A stretch of DNA of 61,205 nt from Clostridiales bacterium (GTDB lineage: Bacteria; Bacillota; Clostridia; Christensenellales; Pumilibacteraceae). Shown here piece by piece: positions 13,945 through 59,407 of the stretch. Both the position numbers and the translations under genes were made by a program. Below the pieces are notes generated by a model that searched no databases, was not told the DNA's origin, and saw only the letters and a list, made by a program, of their open reading frames with translations. The stretch covers positions 21,416 to 82,620 of the forward strand of contig JAFLVD010000007.1 in NCBI GenBank assembly GCA_022508485.1, written 5' to 3'. The stretch's first letter is position 1. Every line of letters begins with the position of its first letter.

Positions 13945-13972
13945 GTGCGGAGGTGGGTATCTGCCTCCGCAC
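13945..13972 (+). other. Intergenic hairpin without a T-run
   Basis: A perfect nine-pair stem (GTGCGGAGG with CCTCCGCAC) closes a ten-base loop between the FN3 lipoprotein gene and the MoxR module. It is followed by AAAGCTATTT rather than a T-run, so it looks more like an mRNA processing or stabilising element, or a weak terminator, than a full stop. Readthrough would join the two units. Confidence 0.5.
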
Positions 13973-13996
13973 AAAGCTATTTAAGAGAGAAACATA

Positions 13997-15505: not shown

Positions 15506-15507
15506 AT

Positions 15508-16485: not shown

Positions 16486-16490
16486 CTTAA

Positions 16491-17375
16491 ATGGGTGCAT
16501 TGGTAGTAAACGAAGAGCTTTTGTCGCAAGTGGAACTTCTTCAAATGCTCGTAAAAAATAATGTTGCGGGGCTGTTCGGCGGAAACCACAGGTCTAAGAC
16601 CTACGGGTCCTCCTGCGAATTTGTCGACTACCGCGACTATATTCCGGGCGACGATATAACCAAGATCGACTGGAACGCCTTTGCACGCTTTGAAAAACTT
16701 TATCTTAAACTCTATCTCGACGAAAGGCAGCTTCACACCCGTATCTATGTAGACGCAAGTTATTCCATGACCTACGGCAAGGGTGGAAAGGACGCGCAGG
16801 CGATAAGGCTTGCCGCGGCGCTTGCGTATCTTTCGATAAGCGAGATGGATAAGGTGTCTATCTACACCATTCACGGAAACCGCGTCGAGGCCGTCATTGA
16901 AAACATACTCGGCAAGGAAACCTATTACAACAACATAGGCAAGCTTAACGACATCGTGTTTGACGGCGACTGCGCCATTTCCGAGGCGATACTGCCTTCT
17001 ACCGTAGGCTACGGCGACGGCATGTCAATTATCATATCCGACTTTTTAACAGACAACGACTACGAGGCCGCGATAGACCATCTCGCCGGTAAAAAGCGCG
17101 ATATACTTTGCGTTCAGGTTTTGGCGGAGGACGAGCTTAATCCTAACGCTCGCGGCAAAATGCACTTTTTCGACAGCGAGGATAATCAAAAGTTTTACCG
17201 CAGGAATATCAACAAAGAGATTATCCGAGCGTACAAGGAAGCGCTCGATTACATTACGGGCAGAGTGGAGTCTTGCAGCAGGTCCCGGGGCGGAGAATAT
17301 ATCCTCGTTTCCGCACAGGATTCAATCGGCGGCGTGTTCTACGATAAGCTTATGGGCTTGGGGGTGGTGAAATGA
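16491..17375 (+). CDS. DUF58-domain protein (module 1)
   Basis: The 294-residue protein has the DUF58 signature YRDYIPGDDITKIDWNAFA at about 47-65, followed by a VWA-like fold with IYVDASYSMTYG in place of a MIDAS-type motif. It lacks the N-terminal membrane helices found in many DUF58 proteins and in its counterpart at 50306, so it is probably cytoplasmic or peripheral. DUF58 proteins are regular partners of MoxR ATPases. The start at 16491 has no strong ribosome-binding site but lies five bases after the MoxR stop. Its end overlaps the start of the BatA-like gene (ATGA). Confidence 0.9.
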   Translation: MGALVVNEELLSQVELLQMLVKNNVAGLFGGNHRSKTYGSSCEFVDYRDYIPGDDITKIDWNAFARFEKLYLKLYLDERQLHTRIYVDASYSMTYGKGGKDAQAIRLAAALAYLSISEMDKVSIYTIHGNRVEAVIENILGKETYYNNIGKLNDIVFDGDCAISEAILPSTVGYGDGMSIIISDFLTDNDYEAAIDHLAGKKRDILCVQVLAEDELNPNARGKMHFFDSEDNQKFYRRNINKEIIRAYKEALDYITGRVESCSRSRGGEYILVSAQDSIGGVFYDKLMGLGVVK

Positions 17376-24752: not shown

Positions 24753-24903
24753 TTTCGGCATTTTAAAAACAAAAACGAGGTAGGCATTTATTGTTAAGCC
24801 GCGACCGAAAAGCCGAGTGGGGTATAAAACAAAACGTCAAATACAGTTTGCCGGACTGAGTAAAACGGCGACGATATTGTAATTTATTTTTCCGGAGGGA
24901 ATG

Positions 24904-27900
24904 ATGAAAAAGAAAATCAAGGCACTGATTGCAACACTGCTTGCGACGACCTGCGCGACGTCCGTATTTGCGCTTACTGCTTGCGAAGGTAAGAATAATC
25001 CTCCGCCGCAAAAAACGGAATGCACGCAGCACGTTGACAAGGACGACAACGGACTCTGCGACAACTGCGGAGAGAAGATGCCGGAGGACGAGCCGCCGCA
25101 GGACGACGCATACGAGATTTCGATAAGCGGCAACACGAGCGTCGACCTCGACATCGGCGCGAGTCAAAAGCTGGAATGGTCGGTATACAAAAACGGCTCG
25201 GTCGTAACAAACGAAAAGGTAAACGTTACGCTTAACAACGACAACGTAAGCTACAACGAGCAAACTCAAATGCTTACCGGCGTTAAGAAAGGGCAGACGA
25301 CCGTTACGCTTACCCTCGAGCGCGACGAGGACGTTAAAAAGACGCTGCGCGTAACGGTTCGCAATTTCTTCTTTAACCACGAAATGAACCGCGGCAGCTG
25401 GAACAGCGCGCTCGAGGACAACGAGACCAATCCCAAGATTTCCGTTATCGGCGGACAGGCGGCGATACCCGTAAAAAATTCAGCCACCCGGTTTGTGTTT
25501 AAGTACACGCTCGACATGGCGGCGACGGACGTAGCAACCAATCAGTCGTTCGGTATCGCGTCGTACATTCCCAAGTCCGGCGAAGTGGGCGACAACGCGA
25601 TGTGGTTCGGACTTCGCGGCACGGGCGTTCGCGGCGTGTTCGGTCTGTACGTCAAGCAGTTCTACCCGGGCTGGGGTGTGGAAGGCGGCTACGAGACTAT
25701 ACCCACAGGCTACGCCAACCTCGGCACGGGCTTTACCGACGTCGAGTTTGTCATAATTCGCGACGGGCTTGATTACTACTGCTCGATAGGCGGCTACTAC
25801 TACAAATACACCGTGTCCGACTCGAGCTATGAGGACGTCGAGTCGTACGCCGGCATTTACAGCCAAGAGCTTGCCTTTGACGTCAGCAAGTATTCCTACT
25901 CGAGCGAGCAGGCGGACGTTGATGCGGCGATCGAAGAATACTACACCAACCGCGGCGTTGCGGTAATAAGCATTAACGAAACGTACCAGAACGAAATGGT
26001 TAAGGGCGAGTCGACCACATTTACCGCGGCGGCGTACCCCACCGACAGAGCGGCTGGCGTTAACCTCGTTTGGACGGTAGACAAGGCGGAGATGACCGCC
26101 GGCGACGCGACGGTAACGGGAAGCGGCGGCAGTGCGACGCTTGCGCTTTCCGAGGACGCGGCAGGGTATGTAACGCTTGTTTGCGCCACCGAGGACGGCG
26201 ACGTAGAGCAAAGACTGCGCATCGAGATTTTAGAGCACAGCCTTAATAATGAAAACGATTACGTCAATACATACGGCGGCGTGCTTATAGGCGGCGAGGG
26301 CGAAAACTACACGCTTACTTTTCCCGAGTCGCGCATCAATAAAAACGGAATAAGCCTTGCCGGCGGCAACGACGAAGAGATTTACCGCCAGACCAATTAC
26401 TGCGCGGTATTCAAGACCAATCCGAGCAAGGACTACACCGTAGAGTTTAAATTCTCTAATTATAGGGCCAACACCAACACGCCCAAATTGCAGGTTTCGC
26501 TGGGCGCCGACAAGAACAACTTCTACCTCGTATACAACAATGCCGGACAGTTCCGCGTAGAGTCGTTTACTCAAGGCACCGAAAGCAACGGCTTCACTAC
26601 GGCCACCTGGCACAATACGCAGTGGATTAACAACTTTAATCCGAGCGCACCCCACTCGTTTAAGCTTACCGTAAGCGACCGCGGCGTTTACAACGTTTAC
26701 ATCGACGGCACTATCTATCCCTTCTACGCGACGGACGCTCAGCAGCAGCTTGCCAACCAGACAACCGTCGTCCGTCAGTACGCCAACTACGACAGGGCGC
26801 TTCCCGTAAAGCTTGCGACAAGCGGCTGCTCGGTCGAGCTTAGCGAAATAAAAATTACCGACGGCACACACGAGAGCATAGAGCACACTTTCTGGAGTAT
26901 GCACCAGAGCTACACCTTCCAGGGCGAGGACGGCTTTACTATGGTTACCCCGGTTATAACCGACCCCAACGCCGACGGCTGGCAGTACGGACAGTGGAGT
27001 GATTACAAGATGTACTACACCGGTGCGCTCGACGACGGCGGCTATGCGCTCGAATACGACGTAAACTTCGGCGACCTCATGAACGACGCCAAGTTCATCA
27101 TGCGCGTGGGCAGCGAGGAAAACTGCGGCAACGCAAATTCGGGCGCGTACGAATTGCAGTTTACGAGTAAGCCGAGCGGCGTGGGCTTAACGCTTCGCCG
27201 CGGCGGCAACTGGCAGGACGGCAAGCTTAAAATCGACCCGACCGACAATCTCAAAATTAAGGTGCGCGTCGAGCTTAAAGGCGGCAACCTGCGCGTAATA
27301 GCAAACGGCAGAATTATCTTTAACGAAAACCACCCGGCAAACAAGATTGCCGACAACGCAAATATCGAATTCTACATGTTCAATAAAACCGCGGACGACG
27401 TGTGGAGTACGAGTAATCCCAATAAGTACGCCAAGCTGTCGCACTTTACGGTAGAGGGCAGCGACTTTACCGCGGCGGACGTTTACGAGCTTAACAGCAC
27501 CGTCGACAACAACATTCTCGTCGTATTTGCGGGCGGCACCGGCGATCCCATACCCGTACAGATTAAGCATAACGGTCAGGTGATTTCCGCCAACGACGAA
27601 TACACTCTTACGTACACGCTCGACGGCGACGACGCGGATAAATTCGAGCTTAGCGAGAACGGCACCATAAAAGGCAAGAGCAGTGCGGCGCTCGGCACTT
27701 ACGACGCTACGGTAACGGTATCGCTCAAAAAGGGCGATGAAGTTATCGACACGATGGACTTTATCGTAACCTTTATCAATAAGCCCACGACCAACAACTT
27801 TGTGGAAGTTACGGGCGGCGTTATTCTCGACACCGAGGGGGACGACGACGAAAACTACTCGATAACCTTCCCCGAAAGCAGAATAGGTACCAACGGTATC

Positions 27901-28938
27901 GGTAACGAGGCTCGCTACGAGGAAAACGCGTACTCGGCTAACCTTAAACAAAAGGTTCAAGGCGATACGACGGTCGAGTTTACCGTATCCAACCTTGTTA
28001 CGCAGGGCGAATCGCCTAAGCTGATGGTTTCGCTCGGCGGAGAACATAACCAACTCTACTTTGTTTACAAAACGGGTGTGGGCTTCAGACTCGAGGTAGT
28101 AATACCGCGCGTTAACACGGGTCACGGCATTTGGGAGGACGACGGCTGGCTTACGTCCGATTGGCAAAGCGACTTCAATCCGAGCGTACCCAACACGTTT
28201 AAAATCGAGCTTAAAGGCGGCAAATACACAGTGTACCGCAAGGTAGGCGACAGCTACAACGCGATTATAGTCGGCGAAAACGGCAACTTCGGTTCGCACA
28301 CTATGGCGGCAAGCTACGAGAGCTACATGGCGGAAAAGCCGGTCAGAATTTCCACAAGCAACAGCGCCTGCGTCGTAAGCGGTATAAAGATTACGACGGG
28401 TACATTCGCCCCTTACTATTCCACTACTTCCGTAGTTAACTACACCGACGGCAAACTTGTTATAAATGCGCTCAGAGAAGGCTGGAACAACGAAGGCGGT
28501 CAGCAAAAAGGCAATCCCGACAAAACCCGTGCAAGGTACACCGCAGGCTATGCGGACGGAAAGACCCTGGAATTCGACCTCGACTTTAACAAGGCTATGA
28601 GGGACGGTAAATTCGCCGTCAACATTGCCGGGGTAAACCTCTATATCGAAAACAAGCTCGCCGATAACGGTAAAATAAACCTTTGCGGCAACGGCGACTG
28701 GGGCGACAGAAGCACTACAATCAACGATACCGACGGCGTTTACAAGCTTCACGTCAAGGTTGTAAGAAACGGCAACGGCATATCCATTAACGTTACCGGC
28801 GGCGCTTCCGAGATGAATTTCGAGACGTCCGGGGACAATATTTCGGGCAACGACTCGTTGTATTTCTGGATATTCAACCAAGACGACGACGGCGCTGCGG
28901 TTACGGTTTCCAACCTTTCCATAACGAACAACGCATAA
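24904..28938 (+). CDS. Large glycan-binding-type lipoprotein with internal duplication
   Basis: Two ATG codons stand in tandem at 24901 and 24904; the second is better spaced from the GGAGGG site. The 1344-residue protein has a lipobox LTAC (Cys27), a short paired-cysteine motif (LCDNCGEKM) and a Big_2-like Ig domain at about 75-155. A concanavalin/laminin-G-like domain and a second Ig-like domain follow. Then comes a large unit that occurs twice (beginning at about 445 and 965) with shared marks such as YxxTFPESRI, LxVSLGxxxNxxYxVY and FNPSxPxxFK. A cadherin- or Ig-like domain separates the copies. It is the first structural gene after the LacI operator. Inferred role: binding of the target polysaccharide at the cell surface; a catalytic role is not excluded. 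Confidence 0.75.
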   Translation: MKKKIKALIATLLATTCATSVFALTACEGKNNPPPQKTECTQHVDKDDNGLCDNCGEKMPEDEPPQDDAYEISISGNTSVDLDIGASQKLEWSVYKNGSVVTNEKVNVTLNNDNVSYNEQTQMLTGVKKGQTTVTLTLERDEDVKKTLRVTVRNFFFNHEMNRGSWNSALEDNETNPKISVIGGQAAIPVKNSATRFVFKYTLDMAATDVATNQSFGIASYIPKSGEVGDNAMWFGLRGTGVRGVFGLYVKQFYPGWGVEGGYETIPTGYANLGTGFTDVEFVIIRDGLDYYCSIGGYYYKYTVSDSSYEDVESYAGIYSQELAFDVSKYSYSSEQADVDAAIEEYYTNRGVAVISINETYQNEMVKGESTTFTAAAYPTDRAAGVNLVWTVDKAEMTAGDATVTGSGGSATLALSEDAAGYVTLVCATEDGDVEQRLRIEILEHSLNNENDYVNTYGGVLIGGEGENYTLTFPESRINKNGISLAGGNDEEIYRQTNYCAVFKTNPSKDYTVEFKFSNYRANTNTPKLQVSLGADKNNFYLVYNNAGQFRVESFTQGTESNGFTTATWHNTQWINNFNPSAPHSFKLTVSDRGVYNVYIDGTIYPFYATDAQQQLANQTTVVRQYANYDRALPVKLATSGCSVELSEIKITDGTHESIEHTFWSMHQSYTFQGEDGFTMVTPVITDPNADGWQYGQWSDYKMYYTGALDDGGYALEYDVNFGDLMNDAKFIMRVGSEENCGNANSGAYELQFTSKPSGVGLTLRRGGNWQDGKLKIDPTDNLKIKVRVELKGGNLRVIANGRIIFNENHPANKIADNANIEFYMFNKTADDVWSTSNPNKYAKLSHFTVEGSDFTAADVYELNSTVDNNILVVFAGGTGDPIPVQIKHNGQVISANDEYTLTYTLDGDDADKFELSENGTIKGKSSAALGTYDATVTVSLKKGDEVIDTMDFIVTFINKPTTNNFVEVTGGVILDTEGDDDENYSITFPESRIGTNGIGNEARYEENAYSANLKQKVQGDTTVEFTVSNLVTQGESPKLMVSLGGEHNQLYFVYKTGVGFRLEVVIPRVNTGHGIWEDDGWLTSDWQSDFNPSVPNTFKIELKGGKYTVYRKVGDSYNAIIVGENGNFGSHTMAASYESYMAEKPVRISTSNSACVVSGIKITTGTFAPYYSTTSVVNYTDGKLVINALREGWNNEGGQQKGNPDKTRARYTAGYADGKTLEFDLDFNKAMRDGKFAVNIAGVNLYIENKLADNGKINLCGNGDWGDRSTTINDTDGVYKLHVKVVRNGNGISINVTGGASEMNFETSGDNISGNDSLYFWIFNQDDDGAAVTVSNLSITNNA

Positions 28939-43999: not shown

Positions 44000-44028
44000 T
44001 TGACAAAATACTATATGTAAAGTATAAT
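44000..44028 (+). promoter_or_regulatory. Consensus sigma-A promoter of the kinase-LRR-MoxR operon
   Basis: Perfect TTGACA (44000-44005) and TATAAT (44023-44028) boxes lie 17 bases apart. The next promoter-like signal on this strand is more than 10 kb away, after the terminator at 53830. Confidence 0.88.
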
Positions 44029-44080
44029 AAAATCGGTATGTAATAAGTGCATATCTGCGTATAAAAATCGGAGAATAGTC

Positions 44081-45778
44081 ATGACGGCGTATATCGTAGC
44101 GTATAGCGTAATATTGTTCTTTATCGCGGCGGCGGTTGTGTCGTTTGCGCTGATTTGGGTGCGGACGCAAAAAAATAAAATGGGCGACCGCGCCAAGCTA
44201 AACACCACGCTTAAAAGCAACGATAAGCTGTTTGCCGATATTTTCGGCTCGTCCGAGAACGCGGCGTTTATTATAGTCGACGCCAAAACCCACTCGCCGA
44301 GCTACGTCAGTAAAAACGCGTCAGACTTTTTCGGTACCGAAGCCTCCAAAATTCTCATGGATATAACGCTCGTCGGTGGGGCGGTGGGAAAAAAAGCATG
44401 GCGCAACTTTAAGCAGAGCTACTTCGAGTGGAACGGACAAAGCGCCTTCTCGTTTGAATTTTCCTACGGTAAGGATAAGCGCGCGCTCGCTCGCGCGGCG
44501 CGAACAAAGCGCATGGGCGTAGAGTACGACGCGTTTATGATTTACGACGTTACCGAGCAGTCGAAGGAAATGGACACCCTTCGCGACGACCTCGACAGGG
44601 CGCTCGGCGAGGCGGCCGGTAAACTGACCTTCCTATCGAGCATGAGCCACGAAATCCGCACGCCCATGAACGGCGTTATGGGCATGATGGAGTTGGCGCG
44701 GAAAAATATCAATAATCCGCAAAAGGCCGGCGACTACCTTTCGCGCGCCGGAGAGCTGAGTAAATTTTTGCTCAGCATGATTAACGATATTTTGGATATT
44801 TCCAAGCTCGAAAGCGGAAAGATGCTTTTGTACAATACCACTTTCGATATTTTCGCGTTTGCCGACAAGATTAAGAACATGTTTAACGGCATGGTAACCG
44901 GCAAGGGTATAAACTTTAAAGTTGAGACCGTCGATTTTACCACACGTTACTTCCTTGCCGACGAAATGCGTCTTACCCAGGTCGTAACCAACTTTATATC
45001 CAACGCCAACAAGTTTACGCCGGTCGGCGGCAACATCGACGTTACGTTTAAGCAGCTCGACAACATCGGCGGAAAGGCGCAAATACTTATTCGAGTCCGC
45101 GATACCGGTAAAGGCATTGCGCCCGAAAACATTCGTAAAATAATGCGCCCCTTCGAGCAGGAAGAGGCGTCCACCGCGCACCATTACGGCGGCACCGGTC
45201 TCGGTCTTGCAATCTGCGACCAGATAGTAACGCTTATGGGCGGCAACATAGTGGTAGACAGCGTGCTCGGCAAGGGCACCGACTTTAACGTGTTTCTCTC
45301 CCTCGAGGTCGCGGACGTAGAGCAGGATCTTAACAGTCCCGTCAGTAACGAGGAAGAGGGCGGCGGCGATGACTTCGCTTACGACGGTTGCAGAATTCTT
45401 CTTGCCGAGGATAACGAGGTTAACGCCGAGATTGCGATTGAAATTCTCACCGACGAGGGCGCGGTCGTAACTCACGCCAAAGACGGTCAGGAAGCGCTCG
45501 ACTTCTACATGGATAAGCCCGAAAACTCGTTCGACCTTATTCTTCTCGATATTCACATGCCCAAGCTTAACGGCAGAGAGGTTGCGCGTAAAATCCGCGC
45601 GAGCGGAAAGGGCGACGCGGAGAGCGTCGCGCTATTGGCGCTGTCCGCAGACGCGTTCGTCGAGGACGTAAAGCTTTCCAAGCAGGCAGGCATGGACGAC
45701 CACGTATCCAAGCCGATAGATTTCGACGCGCTGAGAAAGACGGCCGGCGCCGTTCTCAAAAAAAAGCGCGGCAAGTAG
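44081..45778 (+). CDS. Hybrid histidine kinase with one receiver
   Basis: The 565-residue protein has a single N-terminal membrane helix (5-27) and then a PAS-like domain at about 48-160 that should be cytoplasmic. A dimerisation domain follows with phospho-acceptor His190 in SSMSHEIRTPMNG. The ATP-binding domain has the N-box FISNANKF and G-boxes DTGKGI and GGTGLGL. The C-terminal receiver has phospho-acceptor Asp490 in LILLDIHMP. There is no large extracellular sensor and no DNA-binding output, so the final effector must be elsewhere. It starts an operon with an LRR lipoprotein and a MoxR module, which suggests that it monitors or controls that machinery; this is inference from position. 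Confidence 0.93.
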   Translation: MTAYIVAYSVILFFIAAAVVSFALIWVRTQKNKMGDRAKLNTTLKSNDKLFADIFGSSENAAFIIVDAKTHSPSYVSKNASDFFGTEASKILMDITLVGGAVGKKAWRNFKQSYFEWNGQSAFSFEFSYGKDKRALARAARTKRMGVEYDAFMIYDVTEQSKEMDTLRDDLDRALGEAAGKLTFLSSMSHEIRTPMNGVMGMMELARKNINNPQKAGDYLSRAGELSKFLLSMINDILDISKLESGKMLLYNTTFDIFAFADKIKNMFNGMVTGKGINFKVETVDFTTRYFLADEMRLTQVVTNFISNANKFTPVGGNIDVTFKQLDNIGGKAQILIRVRDTGKGIAPENIRKIMRPFEQEEASTAHHYGGTGLGLAICDQIVTLMGGNIVVDSVLGKGTDFNVFLSLEVADVEQDLNSPVSNEEEGGGDDFAYDGCRILLAEDNEVNAEIAIEILTDEGAVVTHAKDGQEALDFYMDKPENSFDLILLDIHMPKLNGREVARKIRASGKGDAESVALLALSADAFVEDVKLSKQAGMDDHVSKPIDFDALRKTAGAVLKKKRGK

Positions 45779-45785
45779 GATTTAC

Positions 45786-48700
45786 ATGAAGCGGAAAGGG
45801 ATTTTAATTTTATTCGTTTGTTTGGCGGCGGCATGTTTTGCCCTCGCGTTTTCCGCGTGCGCTACGGACGGTTACACGGGCGGCAAGCCTATTCCCGAAA
45901 CCAACCAAAACGAGGTTCTGTTTATAGAGCACAACAGACTGAGCTTTGCGCTCGGCATGGATATCGACGAAACGAAGGTGCTCGAAAACTGCAACATCAC
46001 TTTTTCGGATAACGGCGGCAACGAGTTTAAAGTAACCGCCGAGTCTCTTGCGGACGGAACGGTCGGCTACGACAGCTTCGATTTGTCCGAGGTCGGGTCC
46101 GACAAGCAGATAGCGATATCGTATAACGGCGCGGTCAATTACATTTACTACGACGTTAACGATTACACCGCGCATTTCTACCTTGACGAGGATCAGACCG
46201 AGCTGTATAAGACGGTAAAGGCCCAGGCGGCTATTACGGACACGCTCGGGCTTGCGGTGTGGGTCAATCTTATAGAATACAACTACTCGACGGACGAGGA
46301 CGCGCGCGGTATGGACGAGTACCGAGCCGAGCGGTTCGACGGCTGGTACGACTCGTCGAGTAACCGTGCGACGGGGCTGTATTCGCTCTCGCCGCCGCTT
46401 AACGGCAACGAGCGCGAGATAAGCTTCCACGCGCACTACATTTCGGACGACGAATTTTCCAATCTTATTCTCTCGTACGACCCTGCCGGCAGGCGAGTGT
46501 TTTCGGGCTACAAGGGCGACGCCGATCGCGTGCGCATTCCCGAAGGCGTAACGTACGTTGACCTTGCGGAAACGTTTAAAAACGGAAGTCCGTTTAAGAG
46601 CATACACATTCCGTCCACGGCGAGCATAGACGTTCCGTTCGTATCGGGCATTCGTTCGACCGGGCTTGAATCGGTAACCGTGGACAGGGGTAACCTAAGA
46701 TATTCCTCGTACAACGGCGCGCTCTATTCCAAAGACTATTCGCGGCTGTACTTTATGCCTAACGACTGCATGGAAACTTCGTTCCACTCGCAGCTGTCCG
46801 TGGTGGAAAGCTACGCGTGCGCGTATTGGCACGTTACCGATTTGACTATTCCCGATGGGATTGTTACGCTTAACCACTACTGCTTTTCGCACTCGCTTAT
46901 CGAGACGGTAACCGGGCTTGAAAACGTTAAAACCATTATGGCCGGCGTGTTTTTCGACTCGGCGTTAAAGACGGTAAGAGACGGCGTCGCCGAGTATCTC
47001 GTGCTGACTGGCGAGAACGAGGGTAAGCTTATTTTAAGCATGATATTGGACACCTCTATCACCGAGTACGCGCTTCTTCCCGGCACGGTGGGCATTTCCG
47101 GCGACGCGTTTACGCGCTGCGCCGCGCTTAAAACCATCGATTTCGGCACCGAGCTGAAAAGCATAGGCGGCTCTGCGTTTGCCGGCTGCGTTTCGCTCGA
47201 AAGCGTTACCTTCCCGTCGTCGCTCGAAAAAATGGGACCGAGCGTGTTTTACGGCTGTTCGGCGCTCGCTTCCGCAAAAGGACTTCCCGTCGTAACGTAC
47301 GTGGACAATTCGGGACGAGAGCACGCAGGCACCGTGCCGTACGGAATTTTTTATAACTGCTCGGCGCTTAGCGAGGTCGACGTTGCAAGAGGGTTTACTT
47401 CGATTGGGCAGAGCGCGTTTTATAATTGCGCTTCGCTTAAACAAATCGAAGTTCCCGATACCGTAACCGTTATCAACGCCTACGGTTTTTACGGCTGTTC
47501 GGCTTTGACTGGTATAGAGCTTCCCGAAGGGCTTAGAGCGCTCGGCACATACGCGTTCGGTTCGTCAGGTCTTAAAACAATCGATTTATCGGTATGTAAA
47601 GGCTTAACGGTTATACCCGATTACTGCTTCCGCAATTCCAAGCTTGTAACCATAACTATCCCCGATTGGATAACGACCATTCCGTACAGATGCTTTTACA
47701 CGGCGTCCTCGCTTACCACAATCAACTTTAACAACATAAAGATTATCGAGGACGAGGCGTTCGCCGGATGCACCGCGCTTAGCGGCTTCGACTTTGACGG
47801 GGTGGAGGAAATAGGGTACCAGGCGTTTTTGCAGTGCAACGGCCTTACCGAAGTGGTACTTCCCGATTCGGTCCGCGTTGTCGGCGGCTATGCCTTCCGC
47901 TCGTGTGCGAATTTAGCTACGATCGAGGTAGGCAAAAACGTAGAACAGTTCGGCTATTACAGCTATCTCGCCGACGGGCTGACCTTCGACGCGGCGCAAG
48001 TACCCGTTTACTCGTGCAGCAGGATAAAAGCGATAAACGTGGACGAGGATAATCCGTACTTTACCTCTATCGATGGCGTTATTTACGGCAGGTCGATTTG
48101 CGGCATAGAATACGGCGAAGCGAGCGTACTGTACTGCCTGCCTCGCGCCAAAACGGGCACGTACTTCGAGTCGGCGCCTACTACGCGAATTGTCGCGCCG
48201 TACGCGCTTCACTACCAGGCGTACATGACCACGTGCGTATTTAACGAGGGTGTGGAAAACATAGGTAAAGCGGCGTTCTATAACGCGACGAAGCTAACCT
48301 CCGTTTCGCTCTCGTCGACCGTATCGTTTATCGGCGCCGGAATACTTCTTAACTGCGCCAACGTTACGTCGTTCACGATTGCCGAGGGCAATAAGGTTTA
48401 TTCCACAGACGGCAACCTTGTGTACAAGGGTAGTGCGCTTTCCATGTACCTCGGTTTAAGCACCGATATAAACATAAAAGAAGGCACGACCGAGATAGAA
48501 TCCGCCGTGTTTATGGATAACAAGAACATAACCGAAATCACCATTCCCGACAGCGTTACTACGATAGGCGTCAAGGCGTTTAGCGGCTGTTCGAATATAA
48601 CCGCGCTTCATATAGGCAGCGGACTTAGGTTTATCGACCCTACGGCGTTCGCGCTGCTTTCCTCGCTCGAAACGATAACGGTAAGCGAGAACAATCCGTA

Positions 48701-49328
48701 CTTTACCGTCGAGAACAACATTCTGTATTCGAGCGATTATAAGTCGCTCGTGCTTGTCGCGGCCAATAACGGCATGACAGATCTTGCTATAAGAGATACG
48801 GTAACCGAGATAAGGGATTACGCGTTTTCGTATCATAAAACGCTTTCCTCGGTTATTATGCCGAGCGGCTTAAAGACCGTCGGTAACTACGCGTTTTACG
48901 AGTGCCGCAAGATTACCGTGCTTCATACCTCGGAGGCGCTCGAAAGCATAGGAAACTACGCGTTCGCGTTCGATTCCTCGTCCTCTTTAAATGTGGACGG
49001 AAGAAGGTGCTGCGACGCGCTCAGGTCGATTATATTCTACGGCAACTTAAAGACGGTGGGCGACTTTGCGTTTAACGGTCAGTTCGGCATAGAACACGTG
49101 TTCTACAAGATGACCATTGCCGAGCTGGAAACGGCGCGGCGCGGCTTTGGCGCAAACAGCGTGTTCTTTACGCTCGGTTGCAGAAACGACGAAACGGGCG
49201 GATATTACAACAACGACGGCGAGGGCATTATCCGCGCTCTGTACAGCGCCGCGCAGCCTACTATCGACTATAACGGCTACGAGTGGTTCTACTTCGACGA
49301 AGACGGAACCCCCACGCTCTATAAATAA
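45786..49328 (+). CDS. Giant BspA-type leucine-rich-repeat lipoprotein
   Basis: The 1180-residue protein has a lipobox FSAC (Cys25) and an N-terminal beta domain of about 220 residues. From about residue 235 it carries many LRR_5 (BspA/Treponema type) repeats with motifs such as IGxxAFxxCxxLxxVxIPxS and YAFYGCSAL. A short capped C-terminus ends in Tyr- and Asp-rich sequence. BspA-type LRR proteins bind host matrix proteins, other bacteria or glycans at the cell surface. It is encoded seven bases after the histidine kinase and 29 bases before a MoxR ATPase, a rare neighbourhood that makes it a likely client or sensor element of the module. Confidence 0.9.
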   Translation: MKRKGILILFVCLAAACFALAFSACATDGYTGGKPIPETNQNEVLFIEHNRLSFALGMDIDETKVLENCNITFSDNGGNEFKVTAESLADGTVGYDSFDLSEVGSDKQIAISYNGAVNYIYYDVNDYTAHFYLDEDQTELYKTVKAQAAITDTLGLAVWVNLIEYNYSTDEDARGMDEYRAERFDGWYDSSSNRATGLYSLSPPLNGNEREISFHAHYISDDEFSNLILSYDPAGRRVFSGYKGDADRVRIPEGVTYVDLAETFKNGSPFKSIHIPSTASIDVPFVSGIRSTGLESVTVDRGNLRYSSYNGALYSKDYSRLYFMPNDCMETSFHSQLSVVESYACAYWHVTDLTIPDGIVTLNHYCFSHSLIETVTGLENVKTIMAGVFFDSALKTVRDGVAEYLVLTGENEGKLILSMILDTSITEYALLPGTVGISGDAFTRCAALKTIDFGTELKSIGGSAFAGCVSLESVTFPSSLEKMGPSVFYGCSALASAKGLPVVTYVDNSGREHAGTVPYGIFYNCSALSEVDVARGFTSIGQSAFYNCASLKQIEVPDTVTVINAYGFYGCSALTGIELPEGLRALGTYAFGSSGLKTIDLSVCKGLTVIPDYCFRNSKLVTITIPDWITTIPYRCFYTASSLTTINFNNIKIIEDEAFAGCTALSGFDFDGVEEIGYQAFLQCNGLTEVVLPDSVRVVGGYAFRSCANLATIEVGKNVEQFGYYSYLADGLTFDAAQVPVYSCSRIKAINVDEDNPYFTSIDGVIYGRSICGIEYGEASVLYCLPRAKTGTYFESAPTTRIVAPYALHYQAYMTTCVFNEGVENIGKAAFYNATKLTSVSLSSTVSFIGAGILLNCANVTSFTIAEGNKVYSTDGNLVYKGSALSMYLGLSTDINIKEGTTEIESAVFMDNKNITEITIPDSVTTIGVKAFSGCSNITALHIGSGLRFIDPTAFALLSSLETITVSENNPYFTVENNILYSSDYKSLVLVAANNGMTDLAIRDTVTEIRDYAFSYHKTLSSVIMPSGLKTVGNYAFYECRKITVLHTSEALESIGNYAFAFDSSSSLNVDGRRCCDALRSIIFYGNLKTVGDFAFNGQFGIEHVFYKMTIAELETARRGFGANSVFFTLGCRNDETGGYYNNDGEGIIRALYSAAQPTIDYNGYEWFYFDEDGTPTLYK

Positions 49329-49357
49329 ACGGAAAAAACTCAAAGGAGTTAAGTAAT

Positions 49358-50293
49358 ATGATTATAGAAAAATCGGAAGAAATAATCGAGGCCATATCGG
49401 GCGTCCTCATCGGCAAGACCAACGTAATCAAAAAGGTGCTGATGGCGGTGTACGCTAAGGGTAACGTTCTGCTCGAGGACACGCCGGGCGTAGGTAAAAC
49501 CACGCTCGCCTTAGCCTTTGCCAAGTCGCTCGGGCTTGATTTTAAGCGCGTGCAGTTTACGCCGGACACCATGCCTTCCGATATAACCGGCTTTTCCGTT
49601 TTTAACAGCGAGACGGGCGAGTTCGATTACCAGCAGGGCGCGATTGTGTGTAACCTGTTTATGGGCGACGAGATAAACCGCGCGTCCGCAAAAACGCAGT
49701 CGGCGCTTTTGGAGGCGATGGAAGAAAACTCGGTAACGGTCGACGGCGTTACGCACAGATTGCCCAATCCGTTTATCTGTATCGCAACCCAAAACCCGAT
49801 AGGCTCTATCGGTACTCAGCCGCTGCCCGAGTCGCAGCTCGACCGCTTTATGATTAAAATGTCGATAGGCTATCCCGACGGGGCGGAACAGGTGGAAATT
49901 CTCAAACGCCACCAAAAGAGCGAGCCGATAGAGGCGTTGCAGCAGATTGTAGACCGCGACAGCCTCGTCGAGATACAAAACTACATCGGTCAGATTAACG
50001 TGTCCGACGATATTTTGTCTTACATGGTGGCGCTTTGCGAAAATACGCGCAATCATCCCCTTATCGAGCTTGGCGTAAGTCCGCGCGGACTGCTTGCGCT
50101 GTCCCGTATGGTGCGTGCGTGCGCGGTTATATCCGAGCGCGACTACGTTGTGCCGAGCGACGTCCGGGAAGTGTTCTGCGACGTCTGCGCGCACAGAATT
50201 ATCCTTCGTCCGCGTGCAAAGCTCGAGGGAATGACCGCTCGCGGCATTCTGGAAGGCGTGCTTAACGACACAAAGGTTCCGACTATTGCGTAA
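49358..50293 (+). CDS. MoxR-family AAA+ ATPase (module 2)
   Basis: The 311-residue protein has a P-loop DTPGVGKT (41-48), Walker B LFMGDEINR (Asp104, Glu105) and sensor segment IATQNPIGSIGTQPLPESQ, all canonical for MoxR ATPases. It differs clearly from the ATPase encoded at 15508 and is followed by a DUF58 protein with membrane helices and a transglutaminase-like protein. That is the set-up of the widespread MoxR-DUF58-TgpA clusters. It should be the ATP-driven part of module 2. Confidence 0.95.
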   Translation: MIIEKSEEIIEAISGVLIGKTNVIKKVLMAVYAKGNVLLEDTPGVGKTTLALAFAKSLGLDFKRVQFTPDTMPSDITGFSVFNSETGEFDYQQGAIVCNLFMGDEINRASAKTQSALLEAMEENSVTVDGVTHRLPNPFICIATQNPIGSIGTQPLPESQLDRFMIKMSIGYPDGAEQVEILKRHQKSEPIEALQQIVDRDSLVEIQNYIGQINVSDDILSYMVALCENTRNHPLIELGVSPRGLLALSRMVRACAVISERDYVVPSDVREVFCDVCAHRIILRPRAKLEGMTARGILEGVLNDTKVPTIA

Positions 50294-50305
50294 TAGGTGA
50301 AGTAA

Positions 50306-51460
50306 GTGGCGGTTAAGCGGATTATTTATGCAATACTTCTTCTTGCGACTTCGGCGGCGTTTATCGTTTCCAATAACGGTGTGGCGCTGTTCGTACTCGT
50401 GTGCCTTTTGGCTTTTCCGCTTATCTCGCTCGTTCTGCTTATTATAGCGCGTAAATCGGTGCGCTTCGAGCTTTCGGTACGCGATTCGTGTATACGCGGC
50501 GGCAAGCTTTCGCTCACCATGCGCGGCGGCGCAAAGCCGAGAATTTTTCTCGGCGGAATAAAGGTTTTTCTCACCGTGGAAAACACTACGTTCGGAAAAT
50601 CGGAATACAAAAGCTTTATTATAAACGACCTTTCGTACGCCCCTCACACCTTTAATTACGACGGCGGCGATTCGGGAAGAATAGTCGTTAAAAGCGACGA
50701 AGTTAGGCTTATAGATATTTTCGGCGTGTTTTCGGTGGGCGTTAAGTACCCGATATACGCCGAGGCGATCGTATCGCCGCGACTGTACGACGACGTTAAG
50801 GTTACCGCGCAAGACCGCGGCAGCGATACCGTTTTCGGCGACACCTCGCTTCCGCGCAAAGGCTCGGACATTACCGAGGTTTATAACGTGCGCGATTATA
50901 TCCCGGGCGACGCGCCCAATACCGTGCACTGGAAGCTTTCGGGCAAGTTCGGAAGCTTAAAGTCCAAAGAGTTCGGCGCGACCGACGACAGACGAATGCT
51001 TATCCTCGTCGATTTGAGCCGAGTTAAGTACGATAGGACCGCATCCGACAATCAGCTTAACGGCGTCCTGGACGTTGCGGTGTCGCTTTCCAACGCGCTT
51101 AAAAGCATAGGGTACAACCACAGTGTCGGCTGGTTCGACGGCGGCGTGTTCGAAAGCTCGGAGGTGGGCGACGGCGACTCGTTTGTGCGTACCGTCGGCA
51201 AGCTTATGAGTATTAAGGTTAACGATGGTAACGAGGAAACGCTGTTCTACCTCGCGAGAACGCCCGAGTGCGCGGTGTTTACCAAAATCATTTACATTTC
51301 GTCGTTTATAAACAGCGACGAGTTTAAGCAGCCAATCGACGCGGCGTTCACCGCAATAGAGGTGAATAGCGCAATGGGCGAGACCACGCACGAGGGTCTC
51401 CGCGTTATCAACATTCCTTACGACAAAATTCACGACGCGCTTTCTTCAATCAGCATTTAA
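50306..51460 (+). CDS. Membrane-anchored DUF58 protein (module 2)
   Basis: The GTG at 50306 starts a 384-residue protein with two close N-terminal membrane helices (about 3-22 and 25-47). A beta-rich domain outside or at the membrane follows, and then the DUF58 signature YNVRDYIPGDAPNTVHWKL near residues 193-211. A VWA-like part begins with ILVDLSRV. It thus has the full-length DUF58 form that the module 1 counterpart lacks. It lies 12 bases after the MoxR gene and 14 before the transglutaminase-like gene. Confidence 0.9.
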   Translation: MAVKRIIYAILLLATSAAFIVSNNGVALFVLVCLLAFPLISLVLLIIARKSVRFELSVRDSCIRGGKLSLTMRGGAKPRIFLGGIKVFLTVENTTFGKSEYKSFIINDLSYAPHTFNYDGGDSGRIVVKSDEVRLIDIFGVFSVGVKYPIYAEAIVSPRLYDDVKVTAQDRGSDTVFGDTSLPRKGSDITEVYNVRDYIPGDAPNTVHWKLSGKFGSLKSKEFGATDDRRMLILVDLSRVKYDRTASDNQLNGVLDVAVSLSNALKSIGYNHSVGWFDGGVFESSEVGDGDSFVRTVGKLMSIKVNDGNEETLFYLARTPECAVFTKIIYISSFINSDEFKQPIDAAFTAIEVNSAMGETTHEGLRVINIPYDKIHDALSSISI

Positions 51461-51474
51461 TCGATAGGTACGGC

Positions 51475-53823
51475 ATGAAAAAAACGGTTAAAACAATAAT
51501 AATAAAGTCCGACGTCAAGTCGCGGAATATTGTTTTGGAAATAGTGTTTGCTATTGCCGCTTTTTGCGCGCTGTATCTTATGCTTGTTTCGGCGCTGCCG
51601 TTTTATGCCGCGTACTACGTCGCGCTTCCGATAGGCGCGGTCGCATGCTTTGCGGCGGTCTTTTTCCTCGATAAAAAACGCGCGTGGATATTTATACTCG
51701 GCGGTGCGCTTGCGTTTACCGTTATTTGTATCGCCGTGTTCCATCCGTTTAAGAACGGGTTTTTGACGTTTTTGAACGGCGCGGTAAAATCGATAAATTC
51801 CACGCGCCACACCGGCTACGCCACGTTTACCACAGACAAGAGCTTTGGCGCAACCCTCCTTTTCGGCTCGCTCGTCGCGGTTTGGCTCGCCGTGCTTTCG
51901 GCGTTTTCCGTTAAGTACCGCTATCTGTATATAGGCGCGGTCGCGGCGGCGCTTTTCGTGCTTCTGTTTATCGGGCTGTACCCCAAGTACTACACCGTCA
52001 TTTTGCTCGTCCTTGTGTTTATAGGGCTTATCGCCATTCATAAAGGCTTAAAGCTGAAAGCGTTTGCGTTCTATTTGGCGTGCGGCGGCGCGATTGCGCT
52101 TGCAACGCTTCCGTGCTACTTTTTTAAAGGCAGCGCCGCGGTCGACAGTTTTAGGGACGGAATTGCAGACTCTGCCGCAAACGCGGTGTACGGCACGAGC
52201 ATACCGGGTGGTAAGCTCGCTTCTTCCGTGGGTATGCGCGAGTACGAGGGCGTAAGGCTAAACGTAACCTTGTCGCGGCTGACCCCCACGCTGTACCTTA
52301 GGGGATACGTCGGAAGCGAGCTTAACGGAACAATCTGGTCGCAGACCGACAAAAACAGCTATGTGGAAAACGGCTACCAGGGCTTGCTCGATTACGTCGG
52401 CGAGGGCGGAATCCCCACCGTTCAGTATTCCAAATATTCGGGCTTCACAAAGCGCAACAACAAGTACACCGTTACGGTGGAAAACGTTTCCGCCGACAAG
52501 CGGTACGTCTATACCCCGTACACGCTCAGCGAGTACACGACTGGGTCGCAGTACTACGACCTGGGGCTTCGCGGCGACGCATACACCCGTTCGTACACCT
52601 ACATAGTGTTCGCAGGCGACGAGAGCGGCGAGCGCGTTACGCAGGCCGACTGGATAATGACAGACGCCAACCGTTCCGAGGCGATGAATAAGTACGTCGA
52701 GCTTGAAGGCCAGTACCGCGCGTTTGTATACGACAACTACCTGCACCTGGACGACAATGCGGAAAGCGTTATTCACGGCGCGGTGGGTGATTTTAACACC
52801 AAGTCGATAAACACCGCCACGCAGTATATCCGCGCGTATTTCCTCGACGGATATTCGTACGCGGACAAAAGCGACGAATTAAACGGCAGCTTTATTAAAG
52901 AATTTTTCGACGGTTCTATCCGCCGTGCAAACGCCGCGTACTTTGCTTCCGCCGCGACGTACATGTTCCGCGCTTTGGGCTTTCCGGCGCGCTACGCGGA
53001 AGGGTATCTCATAAAGGCCGACGACGACGGGGAAAACGAAACTCTTACCGTCGCGGTAACGGGGGCAAACACTCACGCATGGACGGAAGTGTACTTCGAC
53101 GGTATCGGCTGGCTGCCTATCGAGGTTACGCCTACATTCTTTGTCGAACAGCCGCCCGACGTTACCGTAGACCCCAACGATCCCGAAATAGGCGGCGCGG
53201 TGCCGTCCGACCCGAGCGTGGACACACCGGGTACGCCCGAAGAGGAAGATCCGGAGACGCCGGACGTTCCGCCCGATATTCCGCCCGATATTCCGCCCGA
53301 AAAACAGCCTAAGCAAAAGGCCGCGCTTTTAGTGGCGCTCGAAATTCTCGTACCCATACTCGCCGTTATCGCCGGGCTTGTCGCGCTTGCGTTTGCGTTT
53401 GCGCTGCGCAGCCACTTTGTGCGAGTTAAGCGGCACGACGCGCTTAGTAAGAGCGGCGCCGAGTTCGGGCGCGAGGCGTACAAAATAATGGTGCGCGACT
53501 GCAATGTTATGCGTAGCCGTTTTATCCGTAGTGAAGACAAGACAGCGGAAAACGTAAACGGTAAGGATAGCGTCGAGGAAAAGCAGACGTATAACCACAA
53601 TGAATTAAACATCAAAACGCTCGAAAGTATGGGCGTGGATCCGAGAAGCACGGCGCGCTTTATCCGAATCTGCGAGCAGTGCGTGTACGGCGAGCGCGAC
53701 CCCAACGACAACGAGCGCACGTTTGTGCTGTGGTATATCGAGAGCACGCAAAAAGCTCTTCTCGAAAAATGCGGATTCTTCCGAAAGCTATACTACAAGT
53801 ATATAAGGTGCGTTGTTATTTAA
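51475..53823 (+). CDS. TgpA-like membrane protein with transglutaminase fold lacking the catalytic Cys (module 2)
   Basis: The 782-residue protein has five to seven membrane helices in the first 230 residues and an extracellular region. The transglutaminase-like domain lies at about 470-560, and a Pro/Asp-rich linker with DIPPDIPPEK-type repeats follows. A further helix lies near 620-642 and a cytoplasmic tail resembling DUF4129 ends the protein. In active members the core reads G-x-C-x-x-F-A-S, followed later by a His and an Asp. Here the aligned positions are Ala487 (ANAAYFASA), His534 (NTHAWTEVYF) and Glu550 (GWLPIEVTP). The nucleophile is therefore missing and the acid is changed, so catalysis is unlikely while the fold seems kept. 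A binding or structural role in the MoxR module is inferred. Confidence 0.88.
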   Translation: MKKTVKTIIIKSDVKSRNIVLEIVFAIAAFCALYLMLVSALPFYAAYYVALPIGAVACFAAVFFLDKKRAWIFILGGALAFTVICIAVFHPFKNGFLTFLNGAVKSINSTRHTGYATFTTDKSFGATLLFGSLVAVWLAVLSAFSVKYRYLYIGAVAAALFVLLFIGLYPKYYTVILLVLVFIGLIAIHKGLKLKAFAFYLACGGAIALATLPCYFFKGSAAVDSFRDGIADSAANAVYGTSIPGGKLASSVGMREYEGVRLNVTLSRLTPTLYLRGYVGSELNGTIWSQTDKNSYVENGYQGLLDYVGEGGIPTVQYSKYSGFTKRNNKYTVTVENVSADKRYVYTPYTLSEYTTGSQYYDLGLRGDAYTRSYTYIVFAGDESGERVTQADWIMTDANRSEAMNKYVELEGQYRAFVYDNYLHLDDNAESVIHGAVGDFNTKSINTATQYIRAYFLDGYSYADKSDELNGSFIKEFFDGSIRRANAAYFASAATYMFRALGFPARYAEGYLIKADDDGENETLTVAVTGANTHAWTEVYFDGIGWLPIEVTPTFFVEQPPDVTVDPNDPEIGGAVPSDPSVDTPGTPEEEDPETPDVPPDIPPDIPPEKQPKQKAALLVALEILVPILAVIAGLVALAFAFALRSHFVRVKRHDALSKSGAEFGREAYKIMVRDCNVMRSRFIRSEDKTAENVNGKDSVEEKQTYNHNELNIKTLESMGVDPRSTARFIRICEQCVYGERDPNDNERTFVLWYIESTQKALLEKCGFFRKLYYKYIRCVVI

Positions 53824-53829
53824 AAAAAT

Positions 53830-53862
53830 ACCGAGTCGAATTTGCGTTCGGCTCGGTTTTTT
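53830..53862 (+). terminator. Bidirectional terminator between the MoxR module 2 operon and the ArsB-type permease gene
   Basis: An eleven-pair stem (ACCGAGTCGAA with TTCGGCTCGGT, one G-T pair) is followed by T-rich sequence on the + strand and preceded by AAAAAAA (53823-53829), which gives a T-run on the minus strand. It can serve both convergent genes. Confidence 0.9.
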
Positions 53863-56623: not shown

Positions 56624-56668
56624 ATACTCGGAACAAAAGGCTAACTATACTTTACTATGGAGAGACGT

Positions 56669-59407
56669 ATGGCGGACAGTGAAGTTCAACCCAAGAAAAA
56701 AGGTTTTTTAAAGGAAAAAAGTCAGCGCGTTATACTGATTACTATTTTAATCGGTATTCTTATTGCCGCTGCGGTATTCAGCCTGCTCGGCGTAAATATA
56801 TCCAATAACACTAAGAATACGGTCGACGATATCGGCGACACGTATATGTCGCGTATGGGCAACCAGATTAAACAGCGCTTCGAGGCGGTTATGGAACAGC
56901 GCCTCACTATGGTGCGCGGTATTATTAACGTTCGCGACGACGACGACGGCACTCATGAATCGGATAATCCGGATAATCTGCTGTCTATCGAAAAAACGCG
57001 GCAAAGACTTATCGCGAGCGCCGAGGCGCGAGACTTCCAGTTTCTTGCGCTGTACCGCGTCGACGAGGATAATCTCACCGATTCCGAGGGCGGACGAATT
57101 ATAAACATGCTTATAGGCGACGACCTGTACGCCACCGACCATATTCCGTTTAGACGGTCGGTTTTAGCCGGCGAGGAAAAGGTCGCCGTAGGTACCGCAA
57201 AAGACGACGGCGGCATTCCGCACGAGAACATGGTTATTATAAGCGTGCCTACGCACGGTAAGTTTACTATGGACGACGGGGAAAAGAGCATGTCCGTTCT
57301 TGCCGGCGTTACCAACTCGACGCTCGTTTCCATGCTTAATATCGGCACTTCGGAGAGCACTACCGCGAACGAAGCGCACGGCTACGACTACAACACGAGC
57401 ACGCTTCTTGTTCGCCGCGACCAGACCGTTATACTAATGCAGCAGCGCGAGGAAAACGATCCGCACTACGGCGATAACGCGTACAAGAACAGGCCGTTAA
57501 ATGAATGGCTCGACTATATGTTCGGCAAAGACCTCGAGGACACCACCCCCGAGGAGATTGTAAAAGAGCTTGCCGTAAAGATGAAAAAAGGCGAGGCGTA
57601 TACCAATATAATTCATGCCGGTGCCGAGCACTTGCATATCTATTGCGGACCCATCGTAAAAACCGAGTGGTACGTTGTCGTTGTCATGAACAACAGCGAG
57701 TTAAACAATCTCGTCAACAATCTCGGCAATCAGTGGACGACGCTTATTATTGTCGCTATCGTTATGATTGCGGTTGTAATTGCGGTGCTGTTTGTCGAGT
57801 ACTGGTACTTTAACAAGCAGAATATGCATAAGCTGGAAGAAGCGCACGCCGCGGCGATACATGCGAGCAAGGCAAAGAGTGAGTTCCTGTCCAACATGTC
57901 GCATGATATCCGTACGCCTATGAACGCTATCGTGGGTATGACGACCATTGCGCGCGCCAACATCAATAATCCGGATACGGTTGCCGACTGTCTCAAAAAG
58001 ATTAACATTTCGAGTAAGCACCTGTTGGGACTTATAAACGACGTACTCGACATGTCCAAAATCGAGAGCGGAAAGATGACGCTTAACTTAGAGCAGATAT
58101 CTCTCCGCGAGGTTATCGACGGCATTACGACAATCGTTCAGCCGCAGATTAAAACCAAGCGTCAAAACTTTAACGTAACCGTCGAAAACGTCGAGCAGGA
58201 AAAGGTCTACTGCGACGGCGTAAGGCTTAACCAGGTGCTTATAAACCTTCTCTCCAACTCGATTAAGTTTACTGCCGACGAAGGCACGATAGAATTCCAC
58301 CTCGATCAGTCAAAATCGCCGCTCGGCGACAACTACGTGCGTAACCATATCCGCGTAAAAGACAACGGTATCGGTATGAGCGAGGAATTCCAAAAGAAGA
58401 TTTTCGAATCGTTCTCGCGCGAGGACAATTTACGCGTTCACCGCACCGAGGGTACCGGTCTCGGTATGGCGATTACCAAGTATATCGTCGACGCCATGAA
58501 GGGCACGATTGAAGTTAAGAGTAAGCTGGGCGAGGGTACGCAGTTCGACATTACGCTCGACCTCGAGCGCGTTATGATCCCCGAAGAGGAAATGGTGCTT
58601 CCGTCCTGGAAGATGCTCGTAGTCGACGACGACGAGCAGACCTGTGAAACAACGCTCTCGGCTCTCGGCGATCTCGGTATTCAGGCGGAGAGCGCGTTCG
58701 ACGGCGAGTCCGCTATCGAAAAGGCGGTTGCCGCACACGACGGCGGCGCGCCGTACGATATAATGGTAATCGACTGGAAGCTGCCCGGAATCGACGGCGT
58801 GGAAACCGCGCGCCGCATCCGCAAGCATCTCGGCGATGAAGTCCCGATTTTGCTTATGTCCGCTTACGACAGCTCAGAGGTCGACGCCCCGGCGCGCTCT
58901 GCCGGTATCTGCGGATTCCTTAATAAGCCGCTGTTTAAGTCGACGCTCTATTACGGACTTAAATCGATTTCAGATTCCGTCAAGGCGACCGGCGCCGTTC
59001 CCACTAAAAAGGAAGAGGTCAGCCTCGAAGGACTCCACGTTCTTCTCGCCGAGGATAACGAGCTTAACTGGGAAATTGCGGAAGTGTTGCTCGACAGCGT
59101 AGGCATTACCTGCGACCATGCCGAAAACGGCCAAATCTGCGTCGACATGTTTAAGAACGCCGCGCCCGGCACGTACAGAGCAATCCTTATGGATATCCGT
59201 ATGCCGGTCATGAACGGCCTCGAAGCCGCAATGGAAATCCGTAAGCTCGACCACCCCGATCACAACCTGCCTATTATCGCCATGACCGCCGACGCGTTCA
59301 CCGACGATATGAAGCGGTGCCTCGACGCCGGCATGAACGCGCATATCGCTAAGCCAATCGATATAGAAACCGTCCAAAAAACGTTAAAGAAGTATATCAA
59401 AGCATAA
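56669..59407 (+). CDS. Hybrid histidine kinase with extracellular Cache-like sensor and two receivers
   Basis: The ATG at 56669 is chosen because a GGAGAG site precedes it; an ATG at 56657 lies before that site. The 912-residue protein has helices at 20-42 and 358-381 enclosing a sensor domain of about 315 residues of Cache type. His412 lies in EFLSNMSHDIRTPMN; the ATP-binding domain has LINLLSNSIKF, DNGIGM and GTGLGM. Two receivers follow, with Asp702 (MVIDWKLPG) and Asp842 (ILMDIRMPV). Both receivers keep the acidic pocket and the Lys. No DNA-binding or cyclic-di-GMP output domain is present or encoded nearby. It stands alone, between its own promoter and terminator. Confidence 0.94.
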   Translation: MADSEVQPKKKGFLKEKSQRVILITILIGILIAAAVFSLLGVNISNNTKNTVDDIGDTYMSRMGNQIKQRFEAVMEQRLTMVRGIINVRDDDDGTHESDNPDNLLSIEKTRQRLIASAEARDFQFLALYRVDEDNLTDSEGGRIINMLIGDDLYATDHIPFRRSVLAGEEKVAVGTAKDDGGIPHENMVIISVPTHGKFTMDDGEKSMSVLAGVTNSTLVSMLNIGTSESTTANEAHGYDYNTSTLLVRRDQTVILMQQREENDPHYGDNAYKNRPLNEWLDYMFGKDLEDTTPEEIVKELAVKMKKGEAYTNIIHAGAEHLHIYCGPIVKTEWYVVVVMNNSELNNLVNNLGNQWTTLIIVAIVMIAVVIAVLFVEYWYFNKQNMHKLEEAHAAAIHASKAKSEFLSNMSHDIRTPMNAIVGMTTIARANINNPDTVADCLKKINISSKHLLGLINDVLDMSKIESGKMTLNLEQISLREVIDGITTIVQPQIKTKRQNFNVTVENVEQEKVYCDGVRLNQVLINLLSNSIKFTADEGTIEFHLDQSKSPLGDNYVRNHIRVKDNGIGMSEEFQKKIFESFSREDNLRVHRTEGTGLGMAITKYIVDAMKGTIEVKSKLGEGTQFDITLDLERVMIPEEEMVLPSWKMLVVDDDEQTCETTLSALGDLGIQAESAFDGESAIEKAVAAHDGGAPYDIMVIDWKLPGIDGVETARRIRKHLGDEVPILLMSAYDSSEVDAPARSAGICGFLNKPLFKSTLYYGLKSISDSVKATGAVPTKKEEVSLEGLHVLLAEDNELNWEIAEVLLDSVGITCDHAENGQICVDMFKNAAPGTYRAILMDIRMPVMNGLEAAMEIRKLDHPDHNLPIIAMTADAFTDDMKRCLDAGMNAHIAKPIDIETVQKTLKKYIKA

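Follow-up and report, generated by a model that had tools for sequence, protein, structure and literature searches.

A co-inherited five-gene cassette of a hybrid histidine kinase, an LRR lipoprotein, and a MoxR–DUF58–TgpA-like module in Clostridia

The stretch of Clostridiales DNA analyzed here (61,205 nucleotides; hereafter, the window) contains five adjacent genes that were shown, with high confidence for the linkage, to be one co-inherited unit. They encode a hybrid histidine kinase, an LRR lipoprotein, a MoxR ATPase, a DUF58 protein, and a TgpA-like protein, an arrangement that is the plan of the PFNA operon of bifidobacteria with other parts. We propose, at a probability of about 50% and by analogy with that operon, that the genes constitute a dedicated, mobile, PFNA-like cassette in which a MoxR-driven machine would serve the LRR protein and be coupled to a kinase of its own.

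Organization of the cassette and its products

The five open reading frames lie on the + strand between one promoter and one terminator, and the gaps between them are 7, 29, 12, and 14 bases from 5′ to 3′. The sigma-70-type promoter (TTGACA-17-TATAAT; 44000–44028, + strand) carries 12 of 12 consensus bases, and the intrinsic terminator predicted from the sequence (53830–53857, + strand) comprises 12 pairs and a T tail, the longest stem among the terminator-like sites of the window. An earlier note on this DNA had described the run with these gaps, a perfect promoter, and a strong terminator, all of which were recovered. The short gaps (7–29 bases), with the promoter ahead of the run and the terminator behind it, are indirect signs of co-transcription. 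In the window as a whole, promoter-like sites (14 versus 10.6 ± 3.4 expected) and terminator-like sites (28 versus 22.0 ± 5.1 expected) occurred at frequencies near chance, and perfect promoters, with three in 61 kb, were not rare. A promoter site with at least 10 of 12 consensus bases and a spacer of 17, located no more than 200 bases 5′ of the kinase gene, was found in 11 of 13 cassette loci, and a 12/12 site in seven of the 13. The perfect promoter was therefore a weak hallmark of the cassette, given its three occurrences in the window and the two loci without any 10/12 site. Neither was the terminator a constant feature; when the 90 bases 3′ of the last gene were folded for eight loci and inspected by eye, a T-run hairpin was present only in the window, G013, and G004. 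The base composition of the cassette (52.8% G+C; rest of the window, 51.4%) gave no sign of recent foreign DNA.

The first gene (44081–45778, + strand) encodes a membrane-anchored hybrid histidine kinase of 565 residues with HisKA, HATPase_c, and Response_reg domains in Pfam. A transmembrane helix (residues 5–23) is followed by a PAS domain (approximately residues 58–157), HisKA with the phospho-acceptor His190, HATPase_c, and a receiver domain with Asp490. About four residues precede this sole N-terminal membrane helix, and we infer an inner-side location for the PAS domain. With almost no outside part and an inner PAS domain, the kinase itself could not read much outside the cell. The phospho-acceptor His, the N and G boxes, and the receiver Asp were invariant in all eight aligned cassette kinases, and these conserved residues point to a functional-type hybrid histidine kinase. 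Hydropathy analysis also flagged residues 374–392, which were taken as part of the ATPase domain rather than a membrane helix. A PDB sequence search with the sensor part gave no convincing match. Stand-alone HPt proteins were present in all 12 cassette genomes searched, and an HPt protein is encoded at G000:C14:28041–28211; as this search covered cassette genomes only, it does not tie HPt to the cassette.

The second gene (45786–49328, + strand) encodes a BspA-type LRR lipoprotein of 1180 residues, classified as such by its LRR_5 repeats (391.6 bits in Pfam) together with an export signal. LRR families were the only Pfam families in this protein, and no fibronectin type III (FN3) domain was found. 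The window protein has a lipobox-like Cys25, and such a lipobox-like Cys near residue 25 was seen by eye in all 13 loci, in which the length of the protein is nearly fixed (1179–1213 residues). It has its own N-terminal stretch ahead of the repeats, for which the PDB match was confined to the repeat end. Residues 837–855, also flagged by hydropathy, were taken as part of the repeats and not as a membrane helix.

The MoxR AAA+ ATPase (49358–50293, + strand; 311 residues) matched AAA_3 (188 bits) and AAA_lid_2 in Pfam and PDB entry 2r44 (E 2.7e-86). The following gene (50306–51460, + strand) encodes a divergent DUF58 protein of 384 residues, which scored 20.9 bits against Pfam DUF58. Since this is just under the cut-off of 23.4 bits, the protein was identified by its relatives, as it resembles other MoxR-linked DUF58 proteins, and by gene order. 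It has two N-terminal transmembrane helices and an HWK motif invariant in the eight aligned sequences, and the PDB sequence search gave no match. The last gene (51475–53823, + strand) encodes a TgpA-like protein of 782 residues with eight hydrophobic stretches, namely seven N-terminal transmembrane helices and an eighth that follows a pseudo-transglutaminase domain and precedes a tail; by analogy, this domain is predicted to face the outside of the cell. The protein matched Transglut_core (60.5 bits), and its best PDB match was the TgpA structure 6g49 (E 1.6e-5). Where transglutaminases have the catalytic Cys, the window protein has Ala487 (52933–52935, + strand), and Ala or Ser occupied this position in 12 of 12 readable cassettes, so that the term pseudo-transglutaminase used in the earlier note was right as to the Cys. 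The Cys-less domain is nonetheless the best-conserved part of the protein (mean identity, 63.5%; other segments, 39–53%).

Several other genes in the window were recorded. Close downstream of the cassette lies another hybrid histidine kinase (56657–59407), which carries two receiver domains and also adjoins the cassette in G015. A second MoxR cluster (10582–23455; perfect promoter at 10491) begins with proteins of 1110 and 502 residues belonging to no Pfam family and continues with a MoxR protein 38% identical to that of the cassette (15508–16485), a typical DUF58 protein (16491–17375; 93.7 bits), a BatA/vWA protein (17372–19237), and a double-vWA protein (19191–22007). Other large proteins included a glycoside hydrolase family 3 protein of 1210 residues with the C-terminal-type domain before the N-terminal-type domain (2018–5650), a 743-residue protein with six Big_3 Ig-like stretches (7958–10189), and a lipoprotein-like protein of 1345 residues and no Pfam family (24901–28938), encoded upstream of genes for glycoside hydrolase 43 and an ABC importer.

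Co-inheritance and distribution of the five genes

Related loci were recruited by DUF58 searches alone, which took no account of the kinase and LRR genes. The 12 loci with a close DUF58 protein (G015, G013, G004, G009, G003, G014, G045, G255, G809, G810, G234, and G373) all matched the window in the identity, order, and strand of the five genes, including that of G810, where the contig end falls inside the last cassette gene. The loci of G255, G809, G810, and G234 correspond to L032, L033, L037, and L038, with L032 assigned to G255 and L038 to G234 by identical coordinates. The adjacency of the five families, which the earlier note had proposed to examine across clostridial genomes, was accordingly found at every related locus. 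The cassette loci come from a single order and, within it, from no fewer than three families (f1, f15, and f20).

The DUF58 type, the kinase sensor, and the N-terminal domain of the LRR protein were then searched one by one in the 74 genomes of the family. Each was found in eight genomes, and these were the same eight; the three parts are all-or-none in the family. Kinase sensor matches scored at least 232.6 bits in these eight genomes, and no other match, whether in four further genomes or at another place in G009, exceeded 34.5 bits. Among 396 genomes sampled from the order, the DUF58 type (at least 562 bits; next best, 89) and the LRR N-terminal stretch occurred in the same six. In a sample of 391 genomes from the class, the only close DUF58 copy was the window's own, and the best other match was in G509 (146 bits). 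The claim of the earlier note that the genes form a single coupled system withstood this comparison, as the kinase sensor, LRR domain, and DUF58 type occurred in the same genomes and side by side.

Pairwise distances of the five proteins correlated at 0.93–0.97 across 12 loci (66 pairs). Their correlations with rpoB distances were 0.29–0.41, and the mutual correlations remained at 0.92–0.97 when rpoB was taken out. In each of the five single-gene trees, G255, which belongs to a family other than that of the window (rpoB 61% to the window), and its near twin G809 (rpoB 99%) clustered with five of the seven genomes from the window's genus (support 0.995–1.0). Two members of that genus, G003 and G014, fell outside this group, and G234, from the same genus as G255 (rpoB 86%), has a distant version of the cassette. 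Eight flanking-gene contexts were distinguished among the 12 loci after exclusion of weak matches of 52–90 bits. On this reading of trees and flanks, the whole set appears to have been transferred jointly between bacteria. Ancient duplicate sets followed by losses may also account for the pattern, likewise with inheritance as one unit.

In a tree of MoxR and DUF58 from 77 loci, the 13 cassettes formed one branch (support 1.0), and G509, from another order, was its sister (support 1.0). The MoxR–DUF58–TgpA genes of G509 lie at a contig end (L095). A second contig (L187) encodes a kinase with the sensor type of the cassette (61.7 bits), followed by an LRR_5 protein running off the contig. A similar Ser/Pro/Glu/Thr-rich repeat is encoded in frame at the two contig ends, which have 23 identical bases in common, with no end-to-end overlap. 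We infer that the two contigs represent one locus split at the repeat. By eye, the ATP-binding boxes of the G509 kinase (L187:6166–7818) are degenerate, the His and the receiver domain remaining, and HATPase_c still scored 44 bits. The G509 protein is a possible pseudokinase, in which case kinase activity may be dispensable there. Its LRR protein starts with a hydrophobic stretch in which no lipobox was evident by eye.

Comparison with PFNA and other MoxR–DUF58 loci

As described in the available text of the reports, the PFNA operon of Bifidobacterium has the invariable order pkb2-fn3-aaa-atp-duf58-tgm, has been demonstrated to form a single operon in B. longum GT15, and has five co-evolving core genes, and its Ser/Thr kinase Pkb2 phosphorylates the MoxR protein (PMC8430577, PMC6803598). 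Its genome site is described as differing between groups (PMC8430577, PMC6803598, PMC10688814), and it has been reported as restricted to bifidobacteria (PMC10688814) and set beside the mycobacterial moxR operon (PMC12067865). To judge from these descriptions, the cassette resembles PFNA in gene order, with a kinase, a large surface protein, MoxR, DUF58, and a membrane transglutaminase, in the co-evolution of its five genes, and in its differing genome sites, but its first gene encodes a PAS hybrid histidine kinase (HisKA-HATPase_c-receiver) instead of Pkb2, and its surface protein is a BspA-type LRR lipoprotein instead of an FN3 protein. Because these two defining parts of PFNA were not found in it, the cassette was not filed as PFNA. 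The loss of the catalytic Cys is stated as a difference for the cassette side only. By analogy, the cassette probably works like PFNA.

The PA2875-PA2874-tgpA genes of Pseudomonas aeruginosa are described as three co-transcribed genes (PMC3507681). In the available description, TgpA keeps its catalytic triad and has been tested for activity, and the unit has no gene for a kinase or surface protein, in contrast to the cassette. With PA2875 presumably the MoxR protein and PA2874 the DUF58 protein, the three families would be the same as in the cassette, whose TgpA-like protein has the TgpA structure as its best PDB match. The RavA–ViaA and NorQ–NorD pairs, as described, likewise consist of a MoxR ATPase and a partner acting on a client protein, but the partner is a vWA protein rather than DUF58 with a TgpA-like protein, and we know of no kinase or surface protein in either pair. 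In PMC7159879, no histidine kinase domain is reported among the vWA-linked effectors covered there. The earlier note had held that no described system joins such parts to a kinase. This does not stand in kind, as PFNA has one. As to the particular pairing, no description was found in the open-access literature, as far as its text was available, that joins the MoxR–DUF58–transglutaminase genes to either a histidine kinase or an LRR protein.

We compared the cassettes with 64 other MoxR–DUF58 loci without the cassette kinase, comprising 52 chosen from 88 genomes (at most three per genus) and 12 collected earlier. Sequence searches of the module's run detected neither a histidine kinase nor an LRR protein at any of the 64, indicating that clostridial machines of this type do not generally include a kinase. 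While the first three ordinary loci were seen to keep the catalytic Cys, its loss was considered a hallmark of the cassette, but this was rejected because the residue was lost in seven of 12 ordinary loci. Among the 62 readable loci (two of the 64 were unreadable), it was kept in 51 and lost in 11.

Secreted neighbors were defined as proteins of at least 600 residues, encoded in the same run, with no more than two hydrophobic stretches, the first starting by residue 45. In the resulting table, such a protein accompanied seven of the 11 Cys-less loci and none of the 51 Cys-bearing loci; a looser limit gave 8/11 and 1/51 by adding L132 (stretch at residue 54) and L135 (at residue 46, five genes away). 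The three remaining Cys-less loci comprised L144 and L178, where the rule found no secreted neighbor, and L095, which is cut by the contig end. Cys-less modules in Clostridia therefore tend to accompany large surface proteins. Loci L074, L075, L096, L097, L098, L099, L132, and L138 share large secreted neighbors and loss of the Cys with the cassette but differ from it in that their runs contain neither a histidine kinase nor an LRR protein. In five such loci that were scanned, the secreted neighbors contained dockerin, cell-wall-binding 2, DUF4430, or cadherin-like domains, some below cut-off. These client-bearing loci and the cassettes possibly form a single branch of 22 tips, with a support of only 0.20, and as they may be one branch, the losses of the Cys are not to be counted as independent events.

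A separate observation concerned L162, where a 536-residue protein with a Ser/Thr-kinase motif is encoded on the same strand two genes behind a Cys-bearing TgpA (L162:3132–4742). The gene lies outside the run, after a gap of approximately 365 bases following TgpA, and is followed by a gene for a 412-residue protein with a likely signal peptide; this is perhaps another kinase linked to a MoxR–DUF58–TgpA module.

Proposed mechanism and alternatives

In the proposed mechanism, the LRR protein would be exported and lipid-anchored on the outside of the cell, where the TgpA-like protein, through its Cys-less transglutaminase domain, would hold it or its partner. MoxR and DUF58, positioned on the inner side, would link ATP hydrolysis across the membrane to the assembly or remodeling of this complex. 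Held beside them by its one-helix anchor, the PAS hybrid kinase could be tuned by the state of the machine or by a cytosolic signal, and its output might be phosphate passed from the receiver to a stand-alone HPt protein, or feedback on MoxR as exerted by Pkb2 in PFNA. The earlier idea of a kinase reporting on assembly is plausible in this setting.

A broader reading, which we advance more tentatively and below even odds, is that MoxR–DUF58–TgpA serves large surface proteins generally as an ATP-driven machine with exchangeable clients and kinases (Ser/Thr kinase and FN3 in bifidobacteria; hybrid histidine kinase and LRR here), that the transglutaminase of one clostridial branch has become a binding domain, and that kinase and machine form one transmembrane signaling complex here. 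A second set on this five-part plan, with another kinase and another surface protein, suggests a principle and not a peculiarity of bifidobacteria. The plan, discussed in bifidobacteria as a sensor of host immunity, now extends to other bacteria, and its presence with an LRR client argues against explanations tied to FN3 alone. In its available text, the literature on these operons gives no role for DUF58 and no settled one for membrane transglutaminases beside MoxR; the cassette names a likely client, and what MoxR–DUF58–TgpA acts on becomes directly testable.

The same parts could instead make up a split receptor, in which ligand binding falls to the LRR lipoprotein and its state reaches the kinase, and through it gene expression, by way of the pseudo-transglutaminase, DUF58, and MoxR, with the ATPase resetting the receptor and not assembling it. 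A kinase with almost no outside part that is nevertheless encoded with a surface protein in 13 of 13 loci fits such a receptor, as do the intact receiver domain and the transmembrane stretch of the kinase, with a conservation close to that of the DUF58 stretch (52% each). For a PAS domain on the inner side, however, a cytosolic signal would suffice, and open reading frames and Pfam revealed no separate response regulator among the five genes. We regard the receptor as possible but rather unlikely. Kinases are often genetically linked to the genes they regulate, and the kinase might accordingly control the operon or other genes with no physical tie to the MoxR machine, its linkage reflecting co-transcription with its target. 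A hybrid kinase without its regulator would be odd for local control, though, and the roughly equal co-variation of all five proteins and the lack of a histidine kinase in the runs of the 64 other loci also speak against regulation as its only role, which we consider distinctly improbable.

Chance proximity of the genes, without any system, is the least credible reading of all and was refuted at the level of gene linkage by 13 loci in eight flank contexts with joint inheritance; nothing was found in its favor. A MoxR-based defense or conflict system would suit the patchy presence of the cassette and its spread between families, but no effector domain was found by Pfam in the five proteins, and we give this explanation hardly more weight than chance. 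The PADLOC matches were weak only (22.2 and 19.7 bits) and arose through the receiver and AAA parts, which are common domains.
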